A stretch of 39,095 nt of DNA, taken from the NCBI RefSeq assembly GCF_001699815.1, contig NZ_MCGB01000082.1, positions 1 through 39,095 on the forward strand, written 5' to 3'. Below are positions 7,865 to 39,095 of the stretch, one piece after another. The position numbers were made by a program, and so were the translations under genes. The notes beneath the pieces were generated by a model. It was not told where the DNA came from and made no database searches. It saw only the letters and a list, made by a program, of their open reading frames with translations. Each line of letters opens with the position of its first letter. Position 1 is the first letter of the stretch. This stretch comes from Ralstonia pickettii (lineage in GTDB: Bacteria; Pseudomonadota; Gammaproteobacteria; Burkholderiales; Burkholderiaceae).

Positions 7865-9481
7865 TTATCGTGCGCCGGTGGGCTCCGGCGCAGGCTGCAC
7901 GCCGCTGGCCGGAACATTGGGCTTCGGTGCAGGCGGCTCGGAAGCCGGTGTGGCCTTGCCCTTGGGCAGCTTGGCCGGGGCGCTAGAATCCTTGGCCGCC
8001 GGCGATTTCACCGCCTTGTCCGGCACCGCGGCAGCCGCGGCTTCCAGCACCGACTTCGAGCGCTTGACCGGCTGACCCTTCAGGTCGGCAAGGGCTTGCT
8101 GGAGCATGAAATCTTCGGCCGAACCGAACTCGATCGGCTTCTTGTTGCGCTCCTTCTCGCGCTGCTCGGGCGTCTTCTTGGCGTTTTCTTCTTCCAGGCG
8201 ACGCAGCTCTTCAACGCGGCGCTTTTCGCGCTCGGTCATCTCGGCTTCTTCCGATTCCTGCTTGTTGTGCAGGTGGCGTTCGGTGTCGATTTCGCGCGTG
8301 ATCAGCGCGTCGTCCGGGTCGCCGTCCGGGTTCTGGTCAACCGGAATATCCGGGCGGATGCCCTTGGCCTGAATCGACTTGCCCGACGGCGTGTAGTAGT
8401 AGGCGATGGTCAGCTTGATGCCGGTGTCGTTCGACAGCGGACGCACCGTCTGCACCGAGCCCTTGCCGAAGGTCGTCTTGCCCATCGTCTTGGCACGGTG
8501 ATGATCCTGCAGCGCGCCGGCCACGATTTCTGAGGCCGAAGCCGTGTAGGCGTTGGTCAGCACGATGATCGGCACGGTCTTGAACTCGGGATCCAGGCCC
8601 ACCAGAGGGTCGGAATCCAAGTTGCTCAAGCGGTAGTTTGCGAAGGTCGCCTTGTACGTGCGCTTGGCATCTGGCACCTGGCCGTTGGTCGACACCACCG
8701 TCGCGTCCGGCGGCAGGAATGCAGCCGACACCCCAACTGCTGCCTGCAGCACGCCACCGCCGTTGTTGCGCAGGTCCAGGATCAGGCCCTTGAGGTGGGG
8801 GTCCTGTTTCGCCAGGTCATTGAGCTTCTTGGCCAGGTCCGGCACAGTGCGTTCCTGGAAGCTGGTAATGCGCACCCAGGCAATGCCGTTGTCCAGCATC
8901 TTTGCCTTGACCGACTGCACCTGGATCTCGGCGCGAGTGATGGTCAGCGGGAACGTGCGCTCTTCCTTCTTGCGGTAGATGGTCAGCGTGACCTTCGTGC
9001 CCGGGGCACCGCGCATGCGCTTGACGGCTTGCTCCAGCGGCATGCCGCGCACGGGCTTGTCGTCGATGCGGGTGATCAGGTCGCCCGGCTGCACGCCGGC
9101 GCGGAAGGCGGGGGTGTCTTCGATCGGGTTGATGACCTTAACCAGACCTTCTTCCTGCGAGATCTCGATGCCCAGACCGGCGAAGCGGCCTTGGGTCCCT
9201 TCCTGCAGCTCCTGGAAGTCCTTCTTATCCAGGTAAGCCGAATGCGGGTCGAGGCTGGCGACCATGCCCTTGATGGCTTCGGTCAGCAGCTTGTCGTCGT
9301 CCACCGGCTCGACATATTCACGCTTGATTTGGCCAAAGATGTCCGCCATGAGCCTGAGCTTTTCCAGCGGGAGCGGGCCGACCGTCGCGTTTTGCGCGGT
9401 GGCGGAGAGCTGGAGCGTCGCCAGGACCCCGGTGACGAGGCCGATGGCGATCAAGCTGATGTTCTTGAGCGAAGTTCGCAT
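7865..9481 (-). CDS. C-terminal processing peptidase, S41 family (CtpA-like)
   Basis: A periplasmic serine protease with a PDZ domain that trims or degrades proteins from their C terminus; substrates cannot be told from sequence. It is 538 aa. In order: an N-terminal signal segment (about residues 8-29), a tail-specific protease N-terminal region with FGQIKREYVEPVDDDKLL and the GLGIEI motif, a PDZ domain (about 100-180), and the S41 core with LRNNGGGVLQAAV, the catalytic serine in AYTASASEIVAGAL (Ser317) and the catalytic lysine in TTFGKGSVQT (Lys340). After about residue 425 comes a charged Glu/Lys/Arg coiled-coil-like stretch and a Pro/Ala/Lys-rich tail, longer than in shorter CtpA proteins. 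The ATG at 9481 starts the signal peptide; the frame is open to 9538 but that extension is hydrophilic. Confidence 0.9.
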   Translation of the reverse strand: MRTSLKNISLIAIGLVTGVLATLQLSATAQNATVGPLPLEKLRLMADIFGQIKREYVEPVDDDKLLTEAIKGMVASLDPHSAYLDKKDFQELQEGTQGRFAGLGIEISQEEGLVKVINPIEDTPAFRAGVQPGDLITRIDDKPVRGMPLEQAVKRMRGAPGTKVTLTIYRKKEERTFPLTITRAEIQVQSVKAKMLDNGIAWVRITSFQERTVPDLAKKLNDLAKQDPHLKGLILDLRNNGGGVLQAAVGVSAAFLPPDATVVSTNGQVPDAKRTYKATFANYRLSNLDSDPLVGLDPEFKTVPIIVLTNAYTASASEIVAGALQDHHRAKTMGKTTFGKGSVQTVRPLSNDTGIKLTIAYYYTPSGKSIQAKGIRPDIPVDQNPDGDPDDALITREIDTERHLHNKQESEEAEMTEREKRRVEELRRLEEENAKKTPEQREKERNKKPIEFGSAEDFMLQQALADLKGQPVKRSKSVLEAAAAAVPDKAVKSPAAKDSSAPAKLPKGKATPASEPPAPKPNVPASGVQPAPEPTGAR

Positions 9482-26752: not shown

Positions 26753-29670
26753 CTATGCCGCCGTGTTACGGCCGCGTGACTTTGCCCAGTAAAGTGCGCG
26801 ATCGGCTTCACGTAGGGCGGCGTCTGGATCATGTACCTCCGGGCCCGGGCAGGCCACGCCAACGCTCGTGGTGACGTGCAGGACGGTGCCATCCGACAGG
26901 TGGATCGGCGGGCGGATCGCGCTGACGATCTTCTGCGCGGTGTGCAGCGCATCATCCGGGGCGTCGATGGGGTCGAGCAGGATGATGAATTCGTCACCTG
27001 CGAGGCGGGCGACGGTGTCGGTGCGGCGCACGGCACGTTGCAGCCGGTGTGCGACCTCCACCAGCACCGTATCGCCGGCGGCGTGGCCGTAAGTATCGTT
27101 GATGTGCTTGAAGTGGTCGACGTCCAGGTACAGCACGCCAAGCGGTGCCGGCAGGCGCTGACGACGCTCCAGTGCGGCGCGCAGGCGCTCGTAGAGTTCG
27201 TAGCGGTTCGGCAGGCCGGTGAGGGCATCAAAGTGCGCCATCCGTGACAGTTCCATCTCGCTGCGCTTGGCTGCGGTCACGTCCTGCACGAAGGCGTAAA
27301 AGCCACAGCGGCCGTCATGTGCTTCTGCGGAGTCGGGGACGAGCTGGCCGCGGAAATGTCGAGTGCGGTTGCGCGGGCCGGCGGCGTGCGGCTTTTCGTA
27401 CCAGGGCGCGGTGATCTCGAATTCGACCGATTCTCCGCGTTGGGCGCGCACCATATACGGTGCCAGCAAGGCGTACGTGCCTGGCGTGAACACCCGTTCC
27501 GGCATCTGGCCGCATACCTCCTCGGGCGTGCGCTGCAACCAGCGCGCATGCGTGACGTTGCAGAAAGTGAAGACGCCGTCGGGGTTGATGTGCGACACCA
27601 GCAGCGGCGCGTTGTCGAGCACGAGCTTGAGCGCGCGTTCGCTGCGCGCCAGGGCCAGCTCGGCGGCGGTGCGCGCCGTCAGATCCTGCAGCACCGAGAA
27701 ATAGCCGCGCAGCGTGCCGCGATCATCGTAGTCAGGAAAGTAGTGGCCGCTCAGGTAGCGGGGCACGCCCGTGCGCATGGACGTGATCTCGAACTGCACG
27801 GGGTAGCCGGCCAGCACTTCGGTCATGTAGGGCAGCAGCGTGCGGTAGTCCTCAGGGGCGTAGATGTCGCGCACGTGGCGGTCGAGCATCTCGCCTTCAC
27901 TGCGGCCGAAGGCTTCGAGCAGGGTGCGGCTCGCAAAGCGGACGATGCCGTCGGAGTCGACGTAGCTGAGCTGCGCGGGGACGTTGTCGGCCACCAGGCG
28001 CAGTTGTTCGCGGCTCGCGCGCAAGGCATCACGGCGGCGTTCCAGGCTTTCGTTTGCGGTACGCAGCGCGCGTTCGGACGCGGCCAGCCGGTTGGCAAAC
28101 GGCCGCACCGTCAGGCGGATGACCAGCACGCTGGCGATCATCAGGCACAGCATGAAGGCGCCGAGCCGCTCGAACTGCACGCGCATCGGGGCGTACAGCT
28201 CGGCGCTCGCGATCTTGCTGATCAGCGCCAGGCCCGTGTGGCCGATGGGCGTGTAGCTGAACGATGTCGGCATGCCGTGGATGTCCTGCCACTGGCCGTA
28301 GCCTGCCTCGCCCGCTAGCGCCAAGCGCGACGGCAGCGGCCGGCGGTCGACCGTAAGAGCCGGCAATTCGAACACGTACGCATCGAAGCGCTGCGGAAAC
28401 GACATTGCACGCCCGCGCGCATCAAAGCCCGACATCGCCAGCGTTTCGGTCTTTCCGATGCCGCGTTCACTGGCGTAGCGGCCGGTCATGTGGGCGAGCG
28501 GTTGCTCTGCGACCAGCCAGCCGATCTGCATGCCGTCTGCCATGACAGGCGTTTCTGTGCGCATGGCAAATCCGTGTACCCATTGCAGCGTGACGCGCTC
28601 GGGCGCGAGGCCGGCGTGCAGCCGAATCGACAGCTCGGGCTCAAGCGTTTGCGTGCCGAGACTGACGATGCCCTCGTCCGCCAGCGTACGCAGTTGCAGG
28701 TACGAGTACCCTTGCTGGCGATACGCCTGCAGCGCGCTCTCGCTGCGCAGGCGCGCCGCATTGTCGGTGGGATGGCGCAGCACTTCCTGGATGTACGTGG
28801 CGGCGGCCACCAGGCGCGGGTTTTCCGCGCGCATGGCCAGCAGTTGGTCAAGCTCTTCAGCGTAGCTGGATAGGGCCCGCGCCCGCGCGGTGCCGAATGT
28901 CAGGCTGACGCTGTCCACCTGGATGATGAACGCCGTGATGGTCGCTCCCAGGCCTGCAAGTACCACGCAGCCGCCGCTGATCCACACGATGGTGTCTTCC
29001 GGCGACAAGCGCAGGCGCAACACGCCCGGCTGCCGGACCACCGCAACGCACAGCACGCCCATGACCACCAGCAGCGTGCAGATGGCCGCTACGTCCGAGG
29101 CGCGCCACACCAACCACGCCGGGTACAGATATTCGAGCGCCATGGCGCGGCCAAGCAGGTCGCCCGCGCAGAGCAGCATCGCCAGGCCGACCAAGCCCCA
29201 GAACCACCGCGCGCGGTGCGGTTGCGCAACGTCGGCACAAGGCTCAGGGCCGTCGCCGATGCGGCCATCGCCAGCGCGTGGCTGGGGTGCATGCCGCCAA
29301 TCCATCCGGTCACCCATTGGCGGTCCAGCCATGTGTGCATGCCCGGAAAGTCGAGCCCGATCGGCCATCCCGTGATCATCTCGGCCAGCCGCAGCGTGGA
29401 CAGCACCGCCACCACGCCGCCCAGCCCCCGGGGCACCGGATCTGCCCAGCGCACATTCGGCCGTACCGTCCCGACGAGCAGCGCAGCCAGCCCCGCGCCA
29501 AGCAGGGTCAGGTTGACGCCGGTGGCGAACACGATCAGCAGCCGATCGCTGCCGAGCTTCACTGCCCACGGCCAATGCCGCAGCCAGCCGACCATCACGG
29601 TCAGTCCAACAAGGACGAGGAGGAAGCCGATGCCGCCGGCAATGGCGACAAGCGGCCGGCGAGGAACCAT
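26753..29670 (-). pseudogene. Membrane-bound PAS-PAS-GGDEF diguanylate cyclase, split by a one-base frameshift
   Basis: Two frames must be joined. From the ATG at 29670 the first frame codes for five or so membrane helices (MVPRRPLVAIAGGIGFLLVLVGL to LVPTLRNRTAR). Near 29208-29216, in a GCGCGCGG run, reading must move by one base to continue as WFWGLVGLAMLLCAGDLLGRAM, further helices, a periplasmic sensor region, a last helix (FMLCLMIASVLVIRL), two PAS domains and a C-terminal GGDEF domain. Joined, it would be about 972 aa. The cyclase motif reads AGDEF (Gly to Ala at the first position) with an RxxD inhibitory site (RRTD) five residues before it. Such proteins make cyclic di-GMP. The apparent long N terminus of the second frame upstream of the join is not real protein. 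The disruption may be a sequencing error. Confidence 0.78.
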
Positions 29671-29911
29671 GCAGGTGACGCGTAAGCGGGGCGGTTTCTG
29701 GGCGGATGTCTTCTAACCGGAAGATCGGCCGAAAACCGCGCCGCTTGAGCGTTTCCACCCCAATGGGTGGGCCGAATTGCCATGTCTGCAATGTCAAGTG
29801 ATCGAAGCGCCCGTGAAAGCGATGCGCGACGCACGTCGGGTCTTCTCCCGTGCCGTCACGCAAGTTGGCTACACTGCCCGGACATCGCAGAAATCGCTAC
29901 AGGAGCCGTCA

Positions 29912-31213: not shown

Positions 31214-32224
31214 TCAGGCAGCCTGCGCCGGTCGTGCACAGCGCACGATCGCGCGGACCTGCTTGGCGATCGGCTCCGGCACCGGCTGCTTGCCGTCGAG
31301 CACCGCTTCAATCCACCGCGCCGTTGCCGCCACGTCTGTCCCCACGGGCAGCTCAGGCGGTGCGTCGCTTGAACCTTCCACCGCTTCGATCACCGTTTCG
31401 TGCGCGCCGTCGTGCAGCCACTCCACCGCGCTGCCGCGCCGCGCATCGGCCACTGCCTCGCCTTCGGTGCCGCGCGCCAGCAGCACGTTGGCCGGATGAC
31501 GCAGGAAGTAATCGGTGAGCGTGTCGCGGTATTCCGGGTGCGTGTAGCTGACCAGCCGTAGCGCCTCGTGCGGCGCGTGCCCGCCGACGGGCTGCAGCAT
31601 CTTCACCACCGTGTGGGCGGAATTGCGCAGGCCGACGATCTCGCGCTTATCCAGCAGTGCCGTCAGTTCGGGAGAGAGCACGTCGATCGGCACATAGGCC
31701 AGGCGATCGCGCTCCAGGCGCTCGCGGGCGTCGTCCATGTGTTCGCAGAGGGGCCAGCCGAGCGCTTCGAACAGCGCAGCCGTGGTGACGCGGCCGTCGA
31801 AGCGGCGGATGCCATGCACCAGCACCGGCACACCTTCGCGCGCCAGCAGCTTGGCCAGCAGCGGCACCAGGTTCGGCTGGCGGCGGGCGCCGTTGTAGCT
31901 GGGGATGACGACTGGCAACGCATGCTCGGGCGTGTCCGGCGCCGGCAGCGGCCGGCAATGCGCATGCGTGGCTTCGAGCATGCCGTCGAGTTCTTCCGGG
32001 GTCTCGCCTTTGATGCGGTAGGCCATGAGGATGGCGCCGAGCTGCACGTCGGAGATGCGGCTTTCCAGCATGGCCGTGAAGAGCGCACGGGCATCGTGCT
32101 TGACCAGCGCGCGGGCGCCGTCTGCGCCGCGGCCGATTTCCTTGATGAAGCGGGCAGCGGGGAAGGGGGCGTTCGCGAGGGCGTCTTCAGCGGCGGTGTC
32201 GGGGAGGATGGGAGGGGCAGGCAT
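31214..32224 (-). CDS. ybiB: YbiB/TrpD2-family protein (anthranilate phosphoribosyltransferase-like)
   Basis: A 336-aa protein of glycosyltransferase family 3 fold, related to TrpD but of the YbiB/TrpD2 group, which in E. coli binds nucleic acids instead of making a tryptophan precursor. Seen: N-terminal helical FIKEIGRGADGARALVKHDARALFTAMLESRISDVQLGAILMAYRIKGETPEELDGML, then VVIPSYNGARRQPNLVPLLAKLLAREGVPVLVHG and VGLRNSAHTVVKMLQPV. It lies downstream of the nrt genes on the same strand, separated by a long palindrome (32301-32375). Confidence 0.87.
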   Translation of the reverse strand: MPAPPILPDTAAEDALANAPFPAARFIKEIGRGADGARALVKHDARALFTAMLESRISDVQLGAILMAYRIKGETPEELDGMLEATHAHCRPLPAPDTPEHALPVVIPSYNGARRQPNLVPLLAKLLAREGVPVLVHGIRRFDGRVTTAALFEALGWPLCEHMDDARERLERDRLAYVPIDVLSPELTALLDKREIVGLRNSAHTVVKMLQPVGGHAPHEALRLVSYTHPEYRDTLTDYFLRHPANVLLARGTEGEAVADARRGSAVEWLHDGAHETVIEAVEGSSDAPPELPVGTDVAATARWIEAVLDGKQPVPEPIAKQVRAIVRCARPAQAA

Positions 32225-32399: not shown

Positions 32400-33203
32400 T
32401 CAAGCCGCCTCCGCCACCGGATGCCTCTGCTTCCGATACAGAAAATCCAACACCGCCGTCCGGTAAGCGTGATAAGTCGGATCCTCCGCCAACGCCATCC
32501 GATCCCGAGGCCGCGGCAAATCCACCGTCAACACCTCACCAATCGTCGCAGCCGGCCCATTCGTCATCATCACGATGCGGTCCGCCAGCAGCACCGCTTC
32601 ATCCACATCGTGCGTGACCATCACCACCGTGCTGCCGGTCGCGGCCACGATCTTCAGCAGCTCATCCTGCAGATGCGCCCGCGTGAGTGCATCCAGCGCG
32701 CCAAAGGGCTCATCCATCAGCAGCACCTTCGGCTCCATGGACAATGCGCGAGCGATCCCGACACGCTGCTTCATCCCGCCCGAGATTTCATGCGGATACT
32801 TCTGCTCGGCATGCGACAAGCCGACCAGTGCCAGCGCCGCATGCGTGCGATCACGCAACTGCGCTTTGGTCTCGCTCTTGCCGAAGACGCGCTCGACGGC
32901 GAGATACACATTGTCAAAGCACGTGAGCCACGGCAGCAGCGAATGGTTCTGAAACACCACCGCCCGATCCGGCCCCGGCCCGGCAATCTCGCGCTCGGCC
33001 AGGATCAATCCACCCGTGGTCGGCCGCGTCAGCCCGGCGATGAGATTGAGCAACGTCGATTTACCGCAGCCCGAGTGCCCGATGAGCGCGATGCACTCAC
33101 CGCGCGCAACCGTCAGGTTGATGTCGCGCAGGGCGACGAACGGGCCGCGCTTGGTCTTGAACGTCTGCCCGACGTTTTCAATGCGCAGGAATTTGTCTGT
33201 CAT
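32400..33203 (-). CDS. nrtD: Nitrate/nitrite (or related anion) ABC transporter, ATP-binding protein
   Basis: Energises uptake by the NrtA-NrtB system. It is 267 aa. Walker [10 protein letters not shown] (42-50), Q-loop [13 protein letters not shown], signature [16 protein letters not shown], Walker [13 protein letters not shown] and switch His in VTHDVDEA are all present. The FQNHSLLPW form is typical of the nitrate/taurine-like group. The ATG at 33203 ([11 protein letters not shown]) is preceded by GGGGA; an ATG four codons upstream is less likely. It lies 17 bases after nrtB. It does not carry the extra NrtA-like domain of cyanobacterial NrtC. Confidence 0.88.
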
Positions 33204-33220
33204 GGCGATCCCCATTTCGC

Positions 33221-34072
33221 TCAAACCGCGTCGTACGAGAAGCGCCGCGCAATCGCCAGCAGCGCGTGCTCGAGCAGCAAGCCCACCACGCCAATCACGA
33301 AGATCGCGATCACGATGTGTTCGACCTTCAGGTTGTTCCACTCATCCCACAGCCAGAAGCCGATGCCGACACCGCCGGTGAGCATCTCCGCCGCCACGAT
33401 GACCAGCCACGCCGTGCCGATGGACAATCGCACACCCGTCAGCATATAGGGCAGCACGGCGGGAAATAGCACGCGCGTGAACACCTTCCACTCAGACAGG
33501 TTCAGCACGCGCGCCACGTTCAGGTAGTCCTGCGGCACGCGCGTCACGCCCACGGCGGTGTTGATCACCATCGGCCAGATCGAGCAGATGAAGATCGCCC
33601 AGATGGCCGCCGGATTGGCCGACTTGAATAGCAAGAGGCCAATCGGCAGCCACGCCAGCGGCGACACGGGCCGCAGCAGGCTGATGATGGGCGAGGCCAT
33701 CGCGTTGAGAAACGCAAAACGCCCGATGAGGAAGCCCGCCGGAATGCCGATGACTGCAGCCATGCCGAAGCCCGCACCCACGCGCGCCAGCGAAGCGAGC
33801 ACGTTCCAGCCCACGCCCTGGTCATTCGGGCCATTGCGGTAGAACGGATCGGCAAACAACGCGACCGCTGCTTTCCACGTCACCGCTGGTGTCGGCAATG
33901 CGGGGATGGCCGTGGCAATGCCCTGCCACGCCAGTACAAACAGAACCAAGCCCAGCACGGGCGGAAAGCCGCGCACCACGGCGGCGACAAACCAGTCGCG
34001 CACGGCAAAGCGGCGGCTTTCAGGGGCGGCGTCGGACTGCACGCCGGACAACGTTTTGACGAGCGTGTTCAT
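33221..34072 (-). CDS. nrtB: Nitrate ABC transporter permease
   Basis: Membrane channel of the nitrate uptake system. It is 283 aa with about six helices and the binding-protein-dependent permease domain, including [29 protein letters not shown] and the EAA-like cytoplasmic region [60 protein letters not shown]. The ATG at 34072 has GGAG upstream; an in-frame ATG four codons earlier (34084) is possible. Gene order is nrtA-nrtB-nrtD with short gaps. Confidence 0.9.
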
Positions 34073-34127
34073 GTCGGGCTCCATCGATGTGAGGGACCGC
34101 AATCAGAAATTCGGAAGGCCGGAGGCG

Positions 34128-35408
34128 TCAGGCTTTCAGCTTGAAGCCGTCCGCATACGCGGCAGGGTTCTTCGCATCCCACACCACGCCGTCGATCAAC
34201 TTGGCCGTGCGCATGTCGCTCTTGGGCAGCGGCGTGCCGGTGGCGGTTGCCGCCTGCTTGAAGATGTCCACGCGGTTGACCTGCTTGGCCACGGCCAGGT
34301 AATCCGGATGCGCCTTCAGCAGGCCCCAGCGCTTGTGCTGCGTGAGGAACCACATGCCGTCCGACAGGTACGGAAAGTTGACCGCGCCGTCGTGATAGAA
34401 GCGCATCGGGTCCGGGTCGTCCCACGTCTTGCCCAGACCATTCGTATAGCGGCCGAGCATGCGGTCGAGAATGATGTCCATGTCGGTGTTGACGTAGGAC
34501 TTGGCGGCAATGGTCTCGGCCGTCTTGCGGCGGTTCGATGCGGATGCATCGATGAACTTGCTTGCCTCCAGCACCGCTGCCGTGAGCGCACGCGCGGTGT
34601 TCGGATACTTCTGCACGAACTCCGCCGTGGTGCCGAGCACCTTCTCGGGGTGGTCTTTCCAGATGGCCTGTGTGGTCTCGGCGGTAAAGCCGATGTTGTC
34701 TGCAATCGCGCGGGCACCCCACGGCTCGCCCACGCAGTAGCCATCCATGTTGCCCACCCGCATGTTCGCGACCATCTGCGGCGGGGGCACGGTGATCGCC
34801 TTCGCGTCCTGCAGCGGGTGGATGCCGTGCGCGGCCAGCCAGTAGTACAGCCACATCGCATGCGTGCCGGTCGGGAAGGTCTGCGCGAACACATATTCGC
34901 GCTTGTCTTTCGCCATGACGGCCTTCAACGACGCCCCATCCTTGACGCCCGCTTCCTTGAGCTTGGACGACAGCGTGATCGCCTGGCCGTTGTTGTTGAG
35001 CGTCATCAGCACGGCCATGTCTTTCTTGGGGCCGCCAATGCCGAGCTGCACGCCGTAGATCAGGCCATACAGCACGTGCGCCGCATCCAGATCGCCCGAC
35101 ACGAGCTTGTCGCGTACGCCGGCCCACGAGGCTTCTTTCGACGGCGTGATCTTGATGCCGTACTTCTTGTCGAGGCCGAGCGTGGATGCCATGACCACCG
35201 AAGCACAGTCCGTGAGCGGGATGAAACCCACCTTCAGTTCCGTCTTCTCGGGCGCATCGGAGCCGGCGGCCCAGGCCCCGGCACGCACCAGCGGATCGAT
35301 CAATGCCACGGCACTGCCTCCTGCAATCGTCGCCGCGGCTTTCATGATGCTGCGGCGCTTCGGGTTGATCGGGTTGACGAGAGCGTCGGTCTTGTCTGGC
35401 GCGGCCAT
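34128..35408 (-). CDS. nrtA: Nitrate/nitrite-binding protein NrtA (Tat-exported)
   Basis: Periplasmic solute-binding protein of the CmpA/NrtA family, 426 aa. The N terminus shows a twin-arginine signal (KRRSIMKAAATIAGGSAVA, Arg18-Arg19), so it is probably exported folded by Tat. The mature part has LKVGFIPLTDCASVVMASTLGLDKKYGIKI, SWAGVRDKLVSGDLDAAHVLYGLIYG and MRVGNMDGYCVGEPWGARAI, the ligand-binding blocks of NrtA. The ATG at 35408 has GGAG eight bases upstream; the open frame up to 35597 runs through the regulatory leader and is not coding. It is controlled by the sigma54/ANTAR leader directly upstream. Confidence 0.92.
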   Translation of the reverse strand: MAAPDKTDALVNPINPKRRSIMKAAATIAGGSAVALIDPLVRAGAWAAGSDAPEKTELKVGFIPLTDCASVVMASTLGLDKKYGIKITPSKEASWAGVRDKLVSGDLDAAHVLYGLIYGVQLGIGGPKKDMAVLMTLNNNGQAITLSSKLKEAGVKDGASLKAVMAKDKREYVFAQTFPTGTHAMWLYYWLAAHGIHPLQDAKAITVPPPQMVANMRVGNMDGYCVGEPWGARAIADNIGFTAETTQAIWKDHPEKVLGTTAEFVQKYPNTARALTAAVLEASKFIDASASNRRKTAETIAAKSYVNTDMDIILDRMLGRYTNGLGKTWDDPDPMRFYHDGAVNFPYLSDGMWFLTQHKRWGLLKAHPDYLAVAKQVNRVDIFKQAATATGTPLPKSDMRTAKLIDGVVWDAKNPAAYADGFKLKA

Positions 35409-35419
35409 CCATGGCTCCA

Positions 35420-35489
35420 AAGAAAAAGCGTCCCGACGCGCGACCGCCGCCCATCCGAAAGAGGGGCGCGCTGCCGTGCATCGGGACGC
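35420..35489 (-). terminator. Leader terminator in front of nrtA
   Basis: On the minus strand GCGTCCCGA (35489-35481) pairs perfectly with TCGGGACGC (35436-35428), followed at once by TTTTTCTTT. The T tract runs into the nrtA ribosome-binding site. The 5' arm is shared with hairpin P2 (35482-35499), so only one of the two can form. Confidence 0.75.
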
Positions 35490-35523
35490 CGTTGTCCCGT
35501 GCCGGTACCCACGTTGGCACCGG
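35482..35523 (-). promoter_or_regulatory. ANTAR-type two-hairpin antitermination element (P1 and P2)
   Basis: On the minus strand P1 (35523-35502) has arms CCGGTGCC and GGTACCGG, eight pairs including one G-U, around a hexaloop AACGTG. P2 (35499-35482) has arms CGGGAC and GTCCCG around a hexaloop AACGGC. Both loops have A at position 1 and G at position 4, the rule described for RNA targets of ANTAR proteins. The hairpins are two bases apart. P2 uses the bases that would form the 5' arm of the terminator at 35420-35489. The ANTAR protein itself is encoded immediately upstream. Confidence 0.82.
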
Positions 35524-35538
35524 CTTCGCAGCGACACT

Positions 35539-35554
35539 TGCAAGGGGTATGCCA
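35539..35554 (-). promoter_or_regulatory. sigma54 (RpoN) promoter of the nrt operon
   Basis: Minus-strand TGGCATACCCCTTGCA has the -24 GG and -12 GC exactly ten bases apart and fits the consensus TGGCAYR-N4-TTGCW fully. Transcription would start about 12 bases downstream (near 35529), only a few bases before hairpin P1. This predicts control by NtrC under nitrogen limitation. Confidence 0.8.
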
Positions 35555-35631
35555 ACGTTGAGCGATGCATGCTGGCGTTCCGCGTTCCGATCTCCACGCG
35601 CCGAGCTTTTTTCTCGGCGTTCCGAGCTCGG

Positions 35632-35738
35632 AGCTCGGCGTGCGAGGCTTTTAGCTTGGCGGTTGAGGTTCAGAACTCGGCGCGCGAGGCTTTTAGCTCG
35701 GCGGTTGGGGTTCGGAACTCGGCGTGCGAGGTTCGGGA
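35632..35738. repeat. 42-bp direct tandem repeat, about 2.5 copies
   Basis: Copies start at 35632, 35674 and 35716 (exact 42-base period), each beginning with A[AG]CTCGGCG[TC]GCGAGG. Copies 1 and 2 continue with CTTTTAGC[TC]TGGCGGTTG-like sequence; copy 3 is cut after about 23 bases. The left flank has a 7-bp hairpin (35599-35619) and the palindrome CCGAGCTCGG. It lies between nasT and the sigma54 promoter, in the zone where enhancer sites would be, and codes for nothing convincing. Confidence 0.8.
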
Positions 35739-35811
35739 CGCCGCGCGCGACTGGTGCGTTTCCAGCGCCGGAGTTGTGCGGCGCACCAAAACTGGGCGGC
35801 GGCCCGACCGC

Positions 35812-36450
35812 TCAGCCAGCCATCACATCGATCACGCGTTGTGCGGCTTCCACCAGCTTGATGTTGCGATCCATCGCCATCTTGCGCAGGCGCTTGAAGG
35901 CGTCGTCTTCCGACAGGTTCATCTGCTTCATGAGCATGCCCTTGGCGCGCTCCAGGACCTTGCGCTCGGCGAGTTGCGTCTTGGCGGTGTCCAGCTCGGC
36001 ACGCAACTCACGCTCGTGTTCGAAGCGGGCATAGGCAACGTCCAGCACGGCCTTCACACGCGTGGGCTTGATGCCGTCGACGATGTAGGCGGTGATGCCG
36101 GCGGCAAACGCCGTCTTGATGCGCGTGGCGTCGTCGTTGTCGGTGAACAGCACGATGGGGCGCGGAGCATGCTGCGTGGCCACGCAGACGTGCTCGATGG
36201 TGTCGCGCGCGGCCGATTCGGAGGCGACGATCACCATGTCGGGCTGGGTCTCGGCGATGCGCTCGGGCAGCGTCAGGTCGGCATCCGCCAAGCCGACGTC
36301 CACGAAGCCGGCCTCGGCCAGCCCGGCGCGGATCAGCTCCAGATTGATCTGTTCGGCGTCGAGCGGATCGCGCACCAGCAGCACGCGCATCGGCGCGGCC
36401 GGGTGGTTGGCAGCGGGCGGGGCGGATGGGGTGGGCGGTTTCGCTTGCAT
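35812..36450 (-). CDS. nasT: NasT-like regulator: receiver-like domain plus ANTAR RNA-binding domain
   Basis: An antitermination protein of 212 aa. The N-terminal receiver-like domain begins MRVLLVRDPLDAEQINLEL, and the C-terminal ANTAR domain reads ELDTAKTQLAERKVLERAKGMLMKQMNLSEDDAFKRLRKMAMDRNIKLVEAAQRVID. The usual phospho-acceptor Asp at the end of strand 3 is an Ala (DMVIVASES), so the receiver is probably not phosphorylated. The ATG at 36450 gives a Pro/Ala-rich lead of 20 residues; an internal ATG at 36390 would give a more usual 192 aa. Its gene lies just upstream of the nrt leader that carries the matching RNA hairpins. Confidence 0.88.
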   Translation of the reverse strand: MQAKPPTPSAPPAANHPAAPMRVLLVRDPLDAEQINLELIRAGLAEAGFVDVGLADADLTLPERIAETQPDMVIVASESAARDTIEHVCVATQHAPRPIVLFTDNDDATRIKTAFAAGITAYIVDGIKPTRVKAVLDVAYARFEHERELRAELDTAKTQLAERKVLERAKGMLMKQMNLSEDDAFKRLRKMAMDRNIKLVEAAQRVIDVMAG

Positions 36451-36597
36451 GGTGCAAAGTGGGGCAGGGTGCACGTCGCTTATGCAAGAACCGCGCCGGG
36501 GCGGTGCGGGTGTATCCTCGCAAACTCGTCGGTCGCCGGGGGGCGGTGGCCGCAGTTTCCCACCTGTTCCAATCCAGCTTAGTCCGAGGAGACCCGC

Positions 36598-37298
36598 ATG
36601 ACCGATTTCGTCGTCACCCCGCCCGCCGTCAATGGCATTCCCGTGCGTGGCGGGCATGGCCAGTTTCCGGTGCGCCGTGTGTACTGCGTCGGCCGCAACT
36701 ACGCCGCCCATGCGCGCGAGATGGGTTCCGACCCCGACCGCGAACCGCCGTTCTTCTTCTGCAAGCCGGCCGACGCTGTGCGCTACGTTGCCGACGGCGA
36801 GACCGGCCAGTTCGTCTACCCGACTGAAACCAAGGATTGCCACTACGAGATCGAACTCGTGGTTGCCATCGGCACGGGCGGGCGCGACATCGCCGTGGAA
36901 ACGGCAGCCCACCATGTCTACGGTTACGCCATCGGCCTGGACATGACGCGCCGCGACCTGCAGAACGCTGCCAAGAAGGGCGGCCGCCCGTGGGAGACCG
37001 GCAAGGCGTTCGACGGCTCGGCCCCCATCGGCCGATCGTGCCGGCCAAGGATGTGGCCCACCCGGACAAGGGCGCCGTGACGCTGTCGGTCAACGGCCGC
37101 GAACACCAGCGCGGTGATCTGTCGGACCTGATCTGGTCGGTGCCGGAAACCATTGCGTATCTGTCGCGCCTGTTCGAGCTGCGCCCGGGCGATCTGATCT
37201 ACACCGGCACGCCCGAAGGCGTCGGCCCGGTCGTCGTCGGCGACCTGATGGTCGGCAAGATCGACGGCGTGGGAGAGCTGCACGTGAAGGTGATTTGA
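36598..37298 (+). pseudogene. Fumarylacetoacetate hydrolase family gene with a one-base deletion
   Basis: The ATG at 36598 starts a normal FAH-family protein: RRVYCVGRNYAAHAREMGSD, FFFCKPADAV, HYEIELVVAIG, VYGYAIGLDMTRRDLQ, KGGRPWETGKAFDGSAPIG. Just after 37032 (ATCGGCCGATCG) the frame must shift by one base to continue as PIVPAKDVAHPDKGAVTLSVNGREHQRG and end with YTGTPEGVGPVVVGDLMVGKIDGVGELHVKVI at 37298. One missing C in a GGCCCG run explains it. The intact protein would be about 233 aa and would hydrolyse fumarylpyruvate or fumarylacetoacetate. Unshifted, translation stops at 37080. It may be a sequencing error. Confidence 0.85.
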
Positions 37299-37324
37299 TA
37301 GACCCGCTAGAAGAGTCAGAAGCC

Positions 37325-37975
37325 ATGTCGATCAAGCTGTACAACTATTTCCGCAGTTCGGCGTCATTCCGCGTGCGTATTGCCCTGGAGGTCAAGGGCC
37401 TGCCGTACGACTACGCGCCGGTCCACCTGCTCAAGGGCGAGCAACTGGCCCCCGACTTCGTCAAGCTGAACCCCGATGCGCTGGTGCCCGTGCTGTGCGA
37501 TGGCAACGACGTGCTGAACCAGTCTTTGGCCATCGTCGAGTATCTGGAAGAGACGCATCCCGAGCCCACGCTGCTGCCGGGTTCGGCGAGTAATCGCGCG
37601 CATATCCGCGCGATCGCGCTGGCCATTGCATGCGAGATCCATCCGCTCAACAACCCACGCGTGCTGAAGTATCTGAAGCACACGTTCAACGTGGAAGAAG
37701 AAGCGCGCAACGAGTGGTATCGCCACTGGGTGAAGCTGGGGTTTGCGGCGCTGGAAACGCGGCTGTCACAGTCGCCGCTGACCGGTGCCTACTGTGTTGG
37801 CGACACGCCAACGCTGGCCGACGTGTGCCTCGTGCCGCAGGTGTTCAACGGCAAGCGGTTCGATGTGGCGGTGGAAGATTACCCGACGCTTGCGCGCATC
37901 TTTGCGCACTGTATGGCGCAGGAGGCGTTTCAGCGGGCTGCGCCTGCGGCGCAGCCGGATGCGGTTTCCGCGTAA
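37325..37975 (+). CDS. maiA: Maleylacetoacetate/maleylpyruvate isomerase (zeta-class GST)
   Basis: A glutathione-dependent cis-trans isomerase in tyrosine (homogentisate) or gentisate breakdown; 216 aa. The N-terminal thioredoxin-fold part has SSASFRVRIALEVKGLPYDY (the SS-x-S/F-RVRIAL motif of the zeta class, with Ala in place of the usual Cys) and NPDALVPVLCDGNDVLNQSLAIVEYLEE. The C-terminal all-helical part has ACEIHPLNNPRVLKYLK and YCVGDTPTLADVCLVPQVFN. It is paired with the FAH-family gene 27 bases upstream, which would act on its product. Gentisate and homogentisate routes cannot be told apart here. Confidence 0.9.
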   Translation: MSIKLYNYFRSSASFRVRIALEVKGLPYDYAPVHLLKGEQLAPDFVKLNPDALVPVLCDGNDVLNQSLAIVEYLEETHPEPTLLPGSASNRAHIRAIALAIACEIHPLNNPRVLKYLKHTFNVEEEARNEWYRHWVKLGFAALETRLSQSPLTGAYCVGDTPTLADVCLVPQVFNGKRFDVAVEDYPTLARIFAHCMAQEAFQRAAPAAQPDAVSA

Positions 37976-38055: not shown

Positions 38056-39095
38056 TCAACCCAACAACGCATCCGCAAATTCGCGCGCGGAAAACGGCTG
38101 CAGGTCCTCAACCTGCTCGCCCACGCCGATGAAGTACACCGGCACCGGCCGCTGCCGCGCGATGGCGGCCAGGATGCCGCCCTTGGCGGTGCCGTCCAGC
38201 TTGGTGACGATCAGGCCCGTGAGGCCCAGCGCTTCGTCAAAGGCTTTGACTTGCGCGAGGGCGTTCTGCCCCGTGTTGCCGTCGATCACCAGCAGCGTTT
38301 CGTGCGGCGCCGTGGCCATCGCCTTGGCGGTCACGCGGCGCACCTTCTTCAGCTCTTCCATCAGGTGCAGCTGCGTCGGCAGGCGGCCAGCGGTGTCCGC
38401 CATGACGATGTCGATGCCGCGTGCGCGTGCGGCGTTTACTGCATCGAAGATCACGGCGGCGGGGTCGCCCGATTCCTGCGCCACGACCGTGACGTTGTTG
38501 CGCTGTCCCCAGATCACGAGTTGCTCGCGCGCGGCGGCACGGAACGTGTCGCCTGCGGCCAGCAGCACCGATTGACCGTAGGTCTGGAAGTGCTTGCACA
38601 GCTTGCCGATGCTGGTCGTCTTGCCGGCGCCGTTCACGCCCGCGATCATGATCACCATCGGCTGCTCGCGGCCGAGCACCATGGTTTTTTCCAAGGGGTG
38701 CAGCAGCTCGACCAGCAGGTCACGCAGGGCGGTCTTCACGCCTTCGGCGGTTTCGATACGCTGTGCCTTGATGCGGCGGCGCAGTTCGCCGAGCAGGTAT
38801 TCGGTGGCGTCGACTCCGGCGTCGGCCATGAGCAGGGCGGTCTCCAGCTCTTCGAACAGCGCTTCGTCCACCTTCACGCCCACGAACAGCGTGGTCAGGC
38901 CCTTGCTCGTCTTCGACAGGCCGGAGCGCAGGCGTGACATCCAGCCCTTGCGCGCCTGCTCGATCACAGCAGGCGTCGGCACGGTTTCGATATCGTCGGT
39001 TTGCATGTCGAGTGGAGGCTGCACGGCAGGCGCATCCGGCACGGCAGTGTGGACCGGCGCAGCGACAGGTCCGGGAGCAGGTGCAGCGACGGGCT
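38056..39095 (-). CDS. ftsY: Signal recognition particle receptor FtsY (N terminus cut by window end)
   Basis: A GTPase that docks the SRP-ribosome complex at the membrane. The NG domains are complete: N domain with GWMSRLRSGLSKTSKGLTTLF, then G1 GVNGAGKTTSIGKL, DTFRAAAREQL, DTAGRLP, TKLDGTAKGG and the C-terminal FIGVGEQVEDLQPFSAREFADALL. The frame stays open to the window edge through an Ala/Pro/Val-rich stretch (PVAAPAPGPVAAPVHTAVPDAPAVQPP), the usual low-complexity A domain of beta-proteobacterial FtsY. The GTG at 39042 is therefore internal and the true start lies outside. Confidence 0.95.
   Translation of the reverse strand, partial: PVAAPAPGPVAAPVHTAVPDAPAVQPPLDMQTDDIETVPTPAVIEQARKGWMSRLRSGLSKTSKGLTTLFVGVKVDEALFEELETALLMADAGVDATEYLLGELRRRIKAQRIETAEGVKTALRDLLVELLHPLEKTMVLGREQPMVIMIAGVNGAGKTTSIGKLCKHFQTYGQSVLLAAGDTFRAAAREQLVIWGQRNNVTVVAQESGDPAAVIFDAVNAARARGIDIVMADTAGRLPTQLHLMEELKKVRRVTAKAMATAPHETLLVIDGNTGQNALAQVKAFDEALGLTGLIVTKLDGTAKGGILAAIARQRPVPVYFIGVGEQVEDLQPFSAREFADALLG

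Follow-up and report, generated by a model that had tools for sequence, protein, structure and literature searches.

The leader of nrtABC, the nitrate-uptake operon on the minus strand of the window (the whole stretch of 39,095 nucleotides of Ralstonia pickettii DNA analysed here), reads as a transcription attenuator dependent on the ANTAR protein NasT, an interpretation to which we assign a probability of about 0.9. The earlier note on this DNA had proposed an ANTAR antitermination leader located behind a sigma54-type promoter and before nrtABC, with an ANTAR gene directly upstream, and our analysis supports that arrangement. The second leader before narK-nirB, the relatives with three hairpins, the Rfam narK match and the Ala in the NasT receiver, all described below, were not part of that note. 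The rules given for ANTAR target RNAs in parts of PMC7496416 and PMC3369931 are hexaloop hairpins with a closing C-G pair and an overlap between the second hairpin (P2) and a terminator. The leader has two A1/G4 hexaloop hairpins closed by C-G, a P2 that overlaps a terminator, and an ANTAR gene in the same genome; judged from its letters, it is a not previously known member of the ANTAR (NasT) antitermination leaders.

The nrtA leader and its genes

The first gene of the operon, nrtA (34128-35408, minus strand), encodes a nitrate-binding protein of 426 amino acids with a Tat-type signal, KRRSIMK, recognised by eye; it matches PF13379 with 348 bits, and its closest solved sequence is NrtA 2g29 (E 2.1e-84). 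On the same strand lie nrtB, encoding a nitrate ABC permease (33221-34102 as the listed ORF; TIGR01183, 247 bits, cut-off 209), and a gene for an nrtC/D-type ATPase (32400-33341 as listed; TIGR01184, 344 bits, cut-off 292), whose true start is probably later than listed because the listed ORF overlaps nrtB. Upstream of the leader is nasT (35812-36450, minus strand), which carries the receiver-like plus ANTAR domains (PF03861) that define NasT and is the sole ANTAR match of the genome; its product matches 1s8n, a putative antiterminator, over the full length. Beside nasT, on the plus strand, genes for an FAA hydrolase and a glutathione S-transferase are found at 36598-37975, and other genes in the window encode an SRP54-type GTPase (38056-39042), a PAS-GGDEF protein (26753-29863) and a YbiB-type protein (31214-32224).

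Read 5' to 3' on the minus strand, from 35554 to 35408, the leader is made up of a sigma54 promoter, hairpins P1 and P2, a terminator, a T-tract, GGAG and the nrtA ATG at 35408. The promoter is the -24/-12 element TGGCATACCCCTTGCA (35539-35554). P1 (35501-35524) has a stem of 9 bp with arms GCCGGTGCC and GGTACCGGC around the loop AACGTG, and P2 (35482-35499), the putative antiterminator, a stem of 6 bp with arms CGGGAC and GTCCCG around AACGGC; both closing pairs are C-G, and a reading of the minus strand confirms the earlier statement that both loops follow the A1/G4 rule. The intrinsic terminator (35428-35489) has a stem of 12 bp, with arms GCGTCCCGATGC (35489-35478) and GCGTCGGGACGC (35439-35428). 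Reuse of the 3' arm of P2 as the 5' arm of the terminator, which had also been claimed, is indeed seen, and the terminator arm includes the last two bases of the P2 loop in addition to the entire 3' arm. The T-tract TTTTTCTTT (35419-35427) abuts the ribosome-binding site of nrtA, GGAG (35415-35418), just as had been described. The spacing of two bases reported between P1 and P2 is in fact one base, and becomes two if P2 is counted as 5 bp.

Folding and predicted mechanism

The leader from 35540 to 35410 folds at -74.4 kcal/mol, 5.26 standard deviations below dinucleotide shuffles, none of 200 being as good. This minimum-energy fold contains P1 and the terminator without P2, as would be expected in the absence of protein. 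When the folds were imposed, P1 plus terminator gave -74.4 kcal/mol versus -65.8 for P1 plus P2, and in growing-chain folding P1 and P2 were present at lengths of 58-100 nt, and the terminator appeared at 115 nt and beyond. The computed fold energies are thus in the order expected of an attenuator. A simple terminator scan did not flag the leader terminator, because the scan has a loop limit of 8 bases and this stem encloses 38 structured bases.

We infer from the arrangement that NasT binds the leader, that sigma54 is used and that there is read-through at nrtA. RNA polymerase carrying sigma54 would initiate just 5' of P1, and P1 and then P2 would fold as the transcript lengthens; synthesis of the distal arm would then allow the terminator, being more stable, to capture the 3' arm of P2, and transcription would stop before nrtA. 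NasT sitting on both A1/G4 hexaloops would hold P2, so that transcription would pass through. NasT itself would be switched by protein-protein gating, with NrtA as a candidate partner, rather than by a phosphorelay, which is less likely because its receiver is devoid of the usual phospho-acceptor Asp. At the position that we take, from general receiver biology, to be that of this residue, the alignment has Ala in the protein studied here and in the Cupriavidus-like ones, Glu in genera g17 and g18, and Asp in other genera of the family; Ala at such a position would speak against kinase control.

Conservation of the leader and its promoter

The earlier note had stated that a lack of conservation in related Ralstonia would tell against it. 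The leader is present in 15 of the 16 Ralstonia-group genomes, the contig of the sixteenth ending before the site, with loops, shared arm and promoter kept in all 15 that could be tested, and nasT is present in 16 of 16. In an alignment with 14 distinct rows, 99.0% of the P1/P2 cells are paired, three pairs are changed on both sides, and none of 500 shuffles reaches the covariation score. Pairing amounts to 99.2% of cells for P1, where two pairs show changes on both sides, and to 98.8% for P2, in which a GC to AU swap appears in 2 of the 14 rows. All 168 terminator cells are paired, with changes via G-U only and no double change, so that the common arm can still pair in P2 and in the terminator alike. 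Covariation across the genus is modest, three pairs being double-changed and none of them in the terminator. A P1-P2 covariance model built from near-identical leaders was run on 7 genus genomes and gave one strong site in each, at 67-81 bits, the next best site scoring 22.7. The model was discarded for finding divergent leaders, since at low E-value it returned only the nrtA site of each genome and missed the narK-nirB leader described below.

The promoter had been described as full-consensus. Its GG-N10-GC core is exact, but 2 of 7 positions of the -24 element differ from TGGCACG-N4-TTGC, the consensus used for comparison (PMC4676750, in part). The pattern TGGCAYNNNNYTTGCW has one exact match in 39 kb, and three matches with one mismatch allowed versus 1.62 expected. 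The promoter match by itself is therefore weak as an indication of sigma54 use, and its value would come from conservation: TGGCA[TC]ACCCCTTGC, with the GG-N10-GC core that defines sigma54 promoters, is kept in every one of the 15 testable genomes, which supports the proposed sigma54-type promoter ahead of the ANTAR leader and nrtABC. No sigma70 promoter was found in 35300-35900. In R. solanacearum, nitrate use has been described as entirely dependent on rpoN1, and a role of NtrC is cited in the same paper (PMC4676750, in part). NtrC, proposed as the activator, would here be no more than a candidate: with up to 3 mismatches allowed, no NtrC-like site was found in the stretch that separates nasT from the promoter. 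A match with 2 mismatches, 36440-36456, is located at the start of nasT, and the whole window has 59 matches versus 69.2 expected. The gap between nasT and the promoter is of 160 to 619 bases in the 15 genus genomes; part of it is filled in the window by a 42-base tandem repeat in 3 copies (35605-35731), where enhancer sites would be expected.

A second leader upstream of narK-nirB

A search of the genome with the P2 pattern GGRCAANGGCGTCY rendered 4 matches, the reversed control giving none. Two of the 4 contain the exact core GGACAACGGCGTCC, one being in the nrtA leader and the other in a leader upstream of narK-nirB (C92:102058). This second sigma54-ANTAR leader (8973-9232 of locus L106, on C92) follows TGGCATACCTGTTGC; by eye, it has a P1 with the loop AAAGGC and one stem mismatch, then a spacer hairpin, and then P2 with a shared-arm terminator. 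The gene after it has its best match in the NarK family, at 299.7 bits, just below the cut-off of 311.7, and the next gene is nirB. From the presence of this leader, NasT probably controls at least two nitrate operons in this genome.

Similar leaders stand ahead of nirB in both of the other Ralstonia-group genomes that were fetched (L107, L108) and in the Cupriavidus-like L109, and altered leaders of similar kind in L102, L110 and L111. In genus g17 (L061/L103, which are one genome, and L062), a similar leader precedes a gene for a signal-less NrtA-like (NasS-like) protein, with nirB downstream in L103, so that the sensor may there be under its own switch. A search of 55 kb with Rfam (E<=0.1) gave no match on the narK-nirB leaders L106, L108, L111 and L102 or on L103, and therefore the Rfam models do not cover them.

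NasS and the possible role of NrtA as sensor

The response of NasT to nitrate or nitrite that had been predicted skips a gap, as NasT is described without a recognised nitrate-sensing domain (PMC3795266, in part) and no NasS was detected in this genome. The NasS of Paracoccus is a cytosolic nitrate-binding protein that resembles NrtA without its signal sequence, and it holds NasT until nitrate binds (PMC3795266, in part). Control of this standard kind, with a cytosolic NasS encoded elsewhere in the genome, would follow the Paracoccus mechanism, and a NasS-type gene beside nasT is found in other genomes of the family. In a PF13379 search (E<=1e-40) of 24 genomes, however, no NasS was seen in the Ralstonia group: each of its 12 genomes included (of 16) gives a single protein, which is NrtA, and no second NrtA-type gene is found in the near-complete G008, G012 and G015 (2-4 contigs). 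The next-best PF13379 protein of the window's genome, at 102 bits, is an ABC-type binding protein adjoining an apparent ABC ATPase gene. As positive controls in the same search, six sister-genus genomes (G028, G031, G093, G134, G160 and G185) have a best NasS-type protein at 285.8-302 bits, a level at which a NasS would be detected. A NasS located elsewhere was rejected on these grounds, and we consider the standard scheme very unlikely in Ralstonia.

Each of the six NasS-type genes follows nasT directly, and the approximately 10 kb fetched contains neither an nrtB nor an nrtC match. No signal is seen at the N-termini inspected (G031, G134 and G160), and G031 and G185 contain a second, weaker NasS/NrtA-type protein elsewhere (156 and 166 bits, respectively). 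Exported forms only were found, with N-termini judged by eye, in 12 of 22 hand-picked genomes of the class, although one of the 12, G635, is 75% complete. NasT is thus often present where no NasS can be detected (all 12 Ralstonia-group genomes searched and these 12 of 22), and the NasS-NasT scheme may therefore not be general. In a tree of 46 proteins, which was obtained by a quick method, with long-branch warnings and the root not inferred, the NasS-type proteins of the family are placed inside the clade of exported NrtA proteins, where their sister is the group that contains Ralstonia NrtA, and two signal/no-signal label changes suffice. Gene order, homology and this branching suggest that Ralstonia NrtA occupies the place of NasS.

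It could also be the case that NasT, for which no sensor partner was found and whose receiver has no phospho-acceptor Asp, is constitutively active, regulation being exerted by the sigma54 promoter alone and the leader being a relic or a fixed attenuator. A relic should decay, whereas loops, shared arm and terminator are kept across the genus, and leaders of the nrtA-leader type recur in other genera, which makes this situation improbable.

Tentatively, NrtA might double as the sensor, a cytosolic form produced from an internal start in the Tat-signal codons holding NasT until nitrate binds. The candidate site (35307-35321, minus strand) consists of GGAGG (35321-35317), resembling a Shine-Dalgarno (SD) sequence, and an in-frame GTG at codon 34 (35309-35307). 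GGAGG is kept in all 15 genus nrtA genes read, followed 7 nt on by GTG in 14 and by ATG in one (L022), in which codons near the internal start are changed with GGAGG unchanged. The SD codon is GGA in 16 of 16 genes, including that of Ralstonia sp. TCR112, whose NrtA is 98% identical, versus 0 of 415 other Gly codons read, most of these genes being read in part. As background, the 269 called ORFs of a sister genome, with 86,841 internal codons, contain 12 instances of an in-frame GGAGG with a start 5-9 nt on. For GGAGG or AGGAG with a start, the nrtA site is the single instance among the 6,658 internal codons of 19 window ORFs, which were chosen by hand and of which not all were confirmed to be genes. 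One ORF (32403-33206) in a set of 13 from the window is probably out of frame, and its codon frequency was left out.

Among 70 named relatives with an RR signal (10 of 80 loci having been dropped, 7 without the domain motif and 3 without RR), 3, including one from Ralstonia, have a 5-base SD plus start in the signal, versus 0 of 560 mature-part control stretches, and a 4-base SD plus start is seen in 14 of 70 versus 41 of 560 (p 0.0013). At the homologous codon, an SD-like motif accompanies 12 of the 45 genes with a start codon there versus none of the 56 without (p 2.4e-5, related rows; 1 of 102 genes dropped). GGA is also enriched in the signal codons of 36 relatives (44 of 80 dropped, 7 without the domain motif and 37 without the cleavage-site motif), with 21 of 123 Gly codons versus 26 of 1070 in the mature part (p 4.8e-10), although rare codons near 5' ends may explain this without any start site. 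The p-values bearing on the internal start are not independent, since the rows are related. The association of motif and start codon, the low background and the branching of sister-genus NasS-type proteins within the exported NrtA clade argue for NrtA as sensor. Against it, nine of the ten Cupriavidus-like nrtA genes shown (g3) have ATG and only one (L056) an SD-like motif, Comamonadaceae nrtA genes have neither internal start codon nor SD, and among the 12 NasS-less genes picked from the class, 8 lack an SD plus start in the signal and 4 have one; all 5 genes with NasS lack it. An internal start was accordingly discarded as a general rule, as it does not extend to Comamonadaceae or to most of the Cupriavidus-like genes.

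In-frame SD-like motifs may slow ribosomes, and the conserved GGAGG, which sits within the signal codons, might represent a ribosome pause aiding Tat export instead of a start site. This we find doubtful, because the motif goes together with a suitably spaced start codon (12 of 45 versus 0 of 56, as above). A dual role of NrtA may be put more broadly, and with considerable reserve: in NasS-less NasT systems the exported NrtA would double as cytosolic sensor, the form from the internal start would hold NasT in lineages like Ralstonia, and NasT would switch the leader of the same gene. If true, one gene would be a transporter part, the sensor and the target of the switch.

Related leaders and known RNA families

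The leader shares with the two-hairpin ANTAR RNAs of EutV and NasR (nasF leader) the A1/G4 hexaloops, the closing C-G, P2 over the terminator and a nitrogen gene downstream (PMC3369931, PMC7496416, both in part). It differs from that type in that P1 and P2 are one base apart, the sigma54 promoter lies directly before P1, and the protein is NasT and not the one-component NasR. With Paracoccus NasS-NasT it has in common an ANTAR protein of the NasT type and a leader RNA preceding nitrate genes (PMC3795266, in part); unlike that system, no NasS was found, an exported NrtA takes its place, and the receiver Asp is replaced by Ala. A survey of ANTAR RNAs already reports matches before nitrate transporter genes and in Burkholderia (PMC3369931, PMC7496416, both in part).

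Judging from their predicted structures, Cupriavidus-like and many Comamonadaceae leaders carry a third hairpin. In the Cupriavidus-like leaders, three consecutive A1/G4 hexaloop hairpins are seen by eye, the loop rule being obeyed in all three in 12 of 12 aligned (12 of 14 were used; L047 and L049 were dropped). For named relatives, 36 of 80 nrtA loci pass a strict rule of sigma54 promoter, hairpin, shared-arm stem and T-tract; upstream of P2, 30 of these 36 carry one or more additional hexaloop hairpins and 13 carry two, while shuffles give 0.98 and 0.015 leaders, respectively. P2 is located at base 62 from the promoter in the Ralstonia leader versus 89-96 in 30 of the 36 relatives. In an alignment of 28 leaders, mostly Comamonadaceae by record titles (28 of 31 used; L195, L201 and L234 were dropped as their layout differs), the third hairpin, P0, shows pairing in 86% of cells; double changes affect three of its pairs and five of those in P1, and P2 is invariant. 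There the loop rule is followed by P1 and P2 in 28 of 28 and by P0 in 13 of 28, so that the generalisation that all third hairpins obey it was rejected.

At gathering scores, Rfam gave no match in the window. Below them, RF03032 (narK RNA) matches over the whole length of the model (1-72; E 1.4e-4, 33.2 bits, gathering 43.2). By eye, the unpaired 5' end of the model corresponds to the sigma54 promoter and its hairpin to P1, and its unpaired 3' end can form P2, whereas the Rfam structure line leaves P2 unpaired and contains no terminator. Of 369 genomes of the class, 16 show a match to RF03032, 2 of them above gathering. An ANTAR gene is present in 14 of these 16 versus 114 of 369 overall (Fisher p 2.6e-6), at 54-9,194 bases from the match; the two genomes without it (L122, L126) show no P1-P2 pair at the match. 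A script found P1 plus a P2-like second hexaloop hairpin in 10 of 16 RF03032 places outside the window's genome, with L113 and L125 not printed by its filter and L118, L121, L122 and L126 without a pair. The Rfam narK RNA appears, from these comparisons, to be a NasT leader together with its sigma54 promoter, which would suggest a function for the family and would make a portion of that 'RNA' promoter DNA. Neither 'narK RNA' nor 'narK motif' was found in the open-licence literature searched, in which there was likewise no earlier account of the three-hairpin form, a NasS-less NasT or the narK/ANTAR link, although the hit tables of PMC3369931 may list the leader or its relatives.

A weak match to another Rfam family, P11 (RF00625, a Pseudomonas sRNA), is located at 35465-35566 (19.7 bits, gathering 70; E 0.036). 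The RF00625 consensus contains GGCACA, a sigma54-like start, an ANTAR-like loop with CAACG, and the hairpin GGACAAAGGCGUCC with a terminator, a likeness that may serve as a lead.
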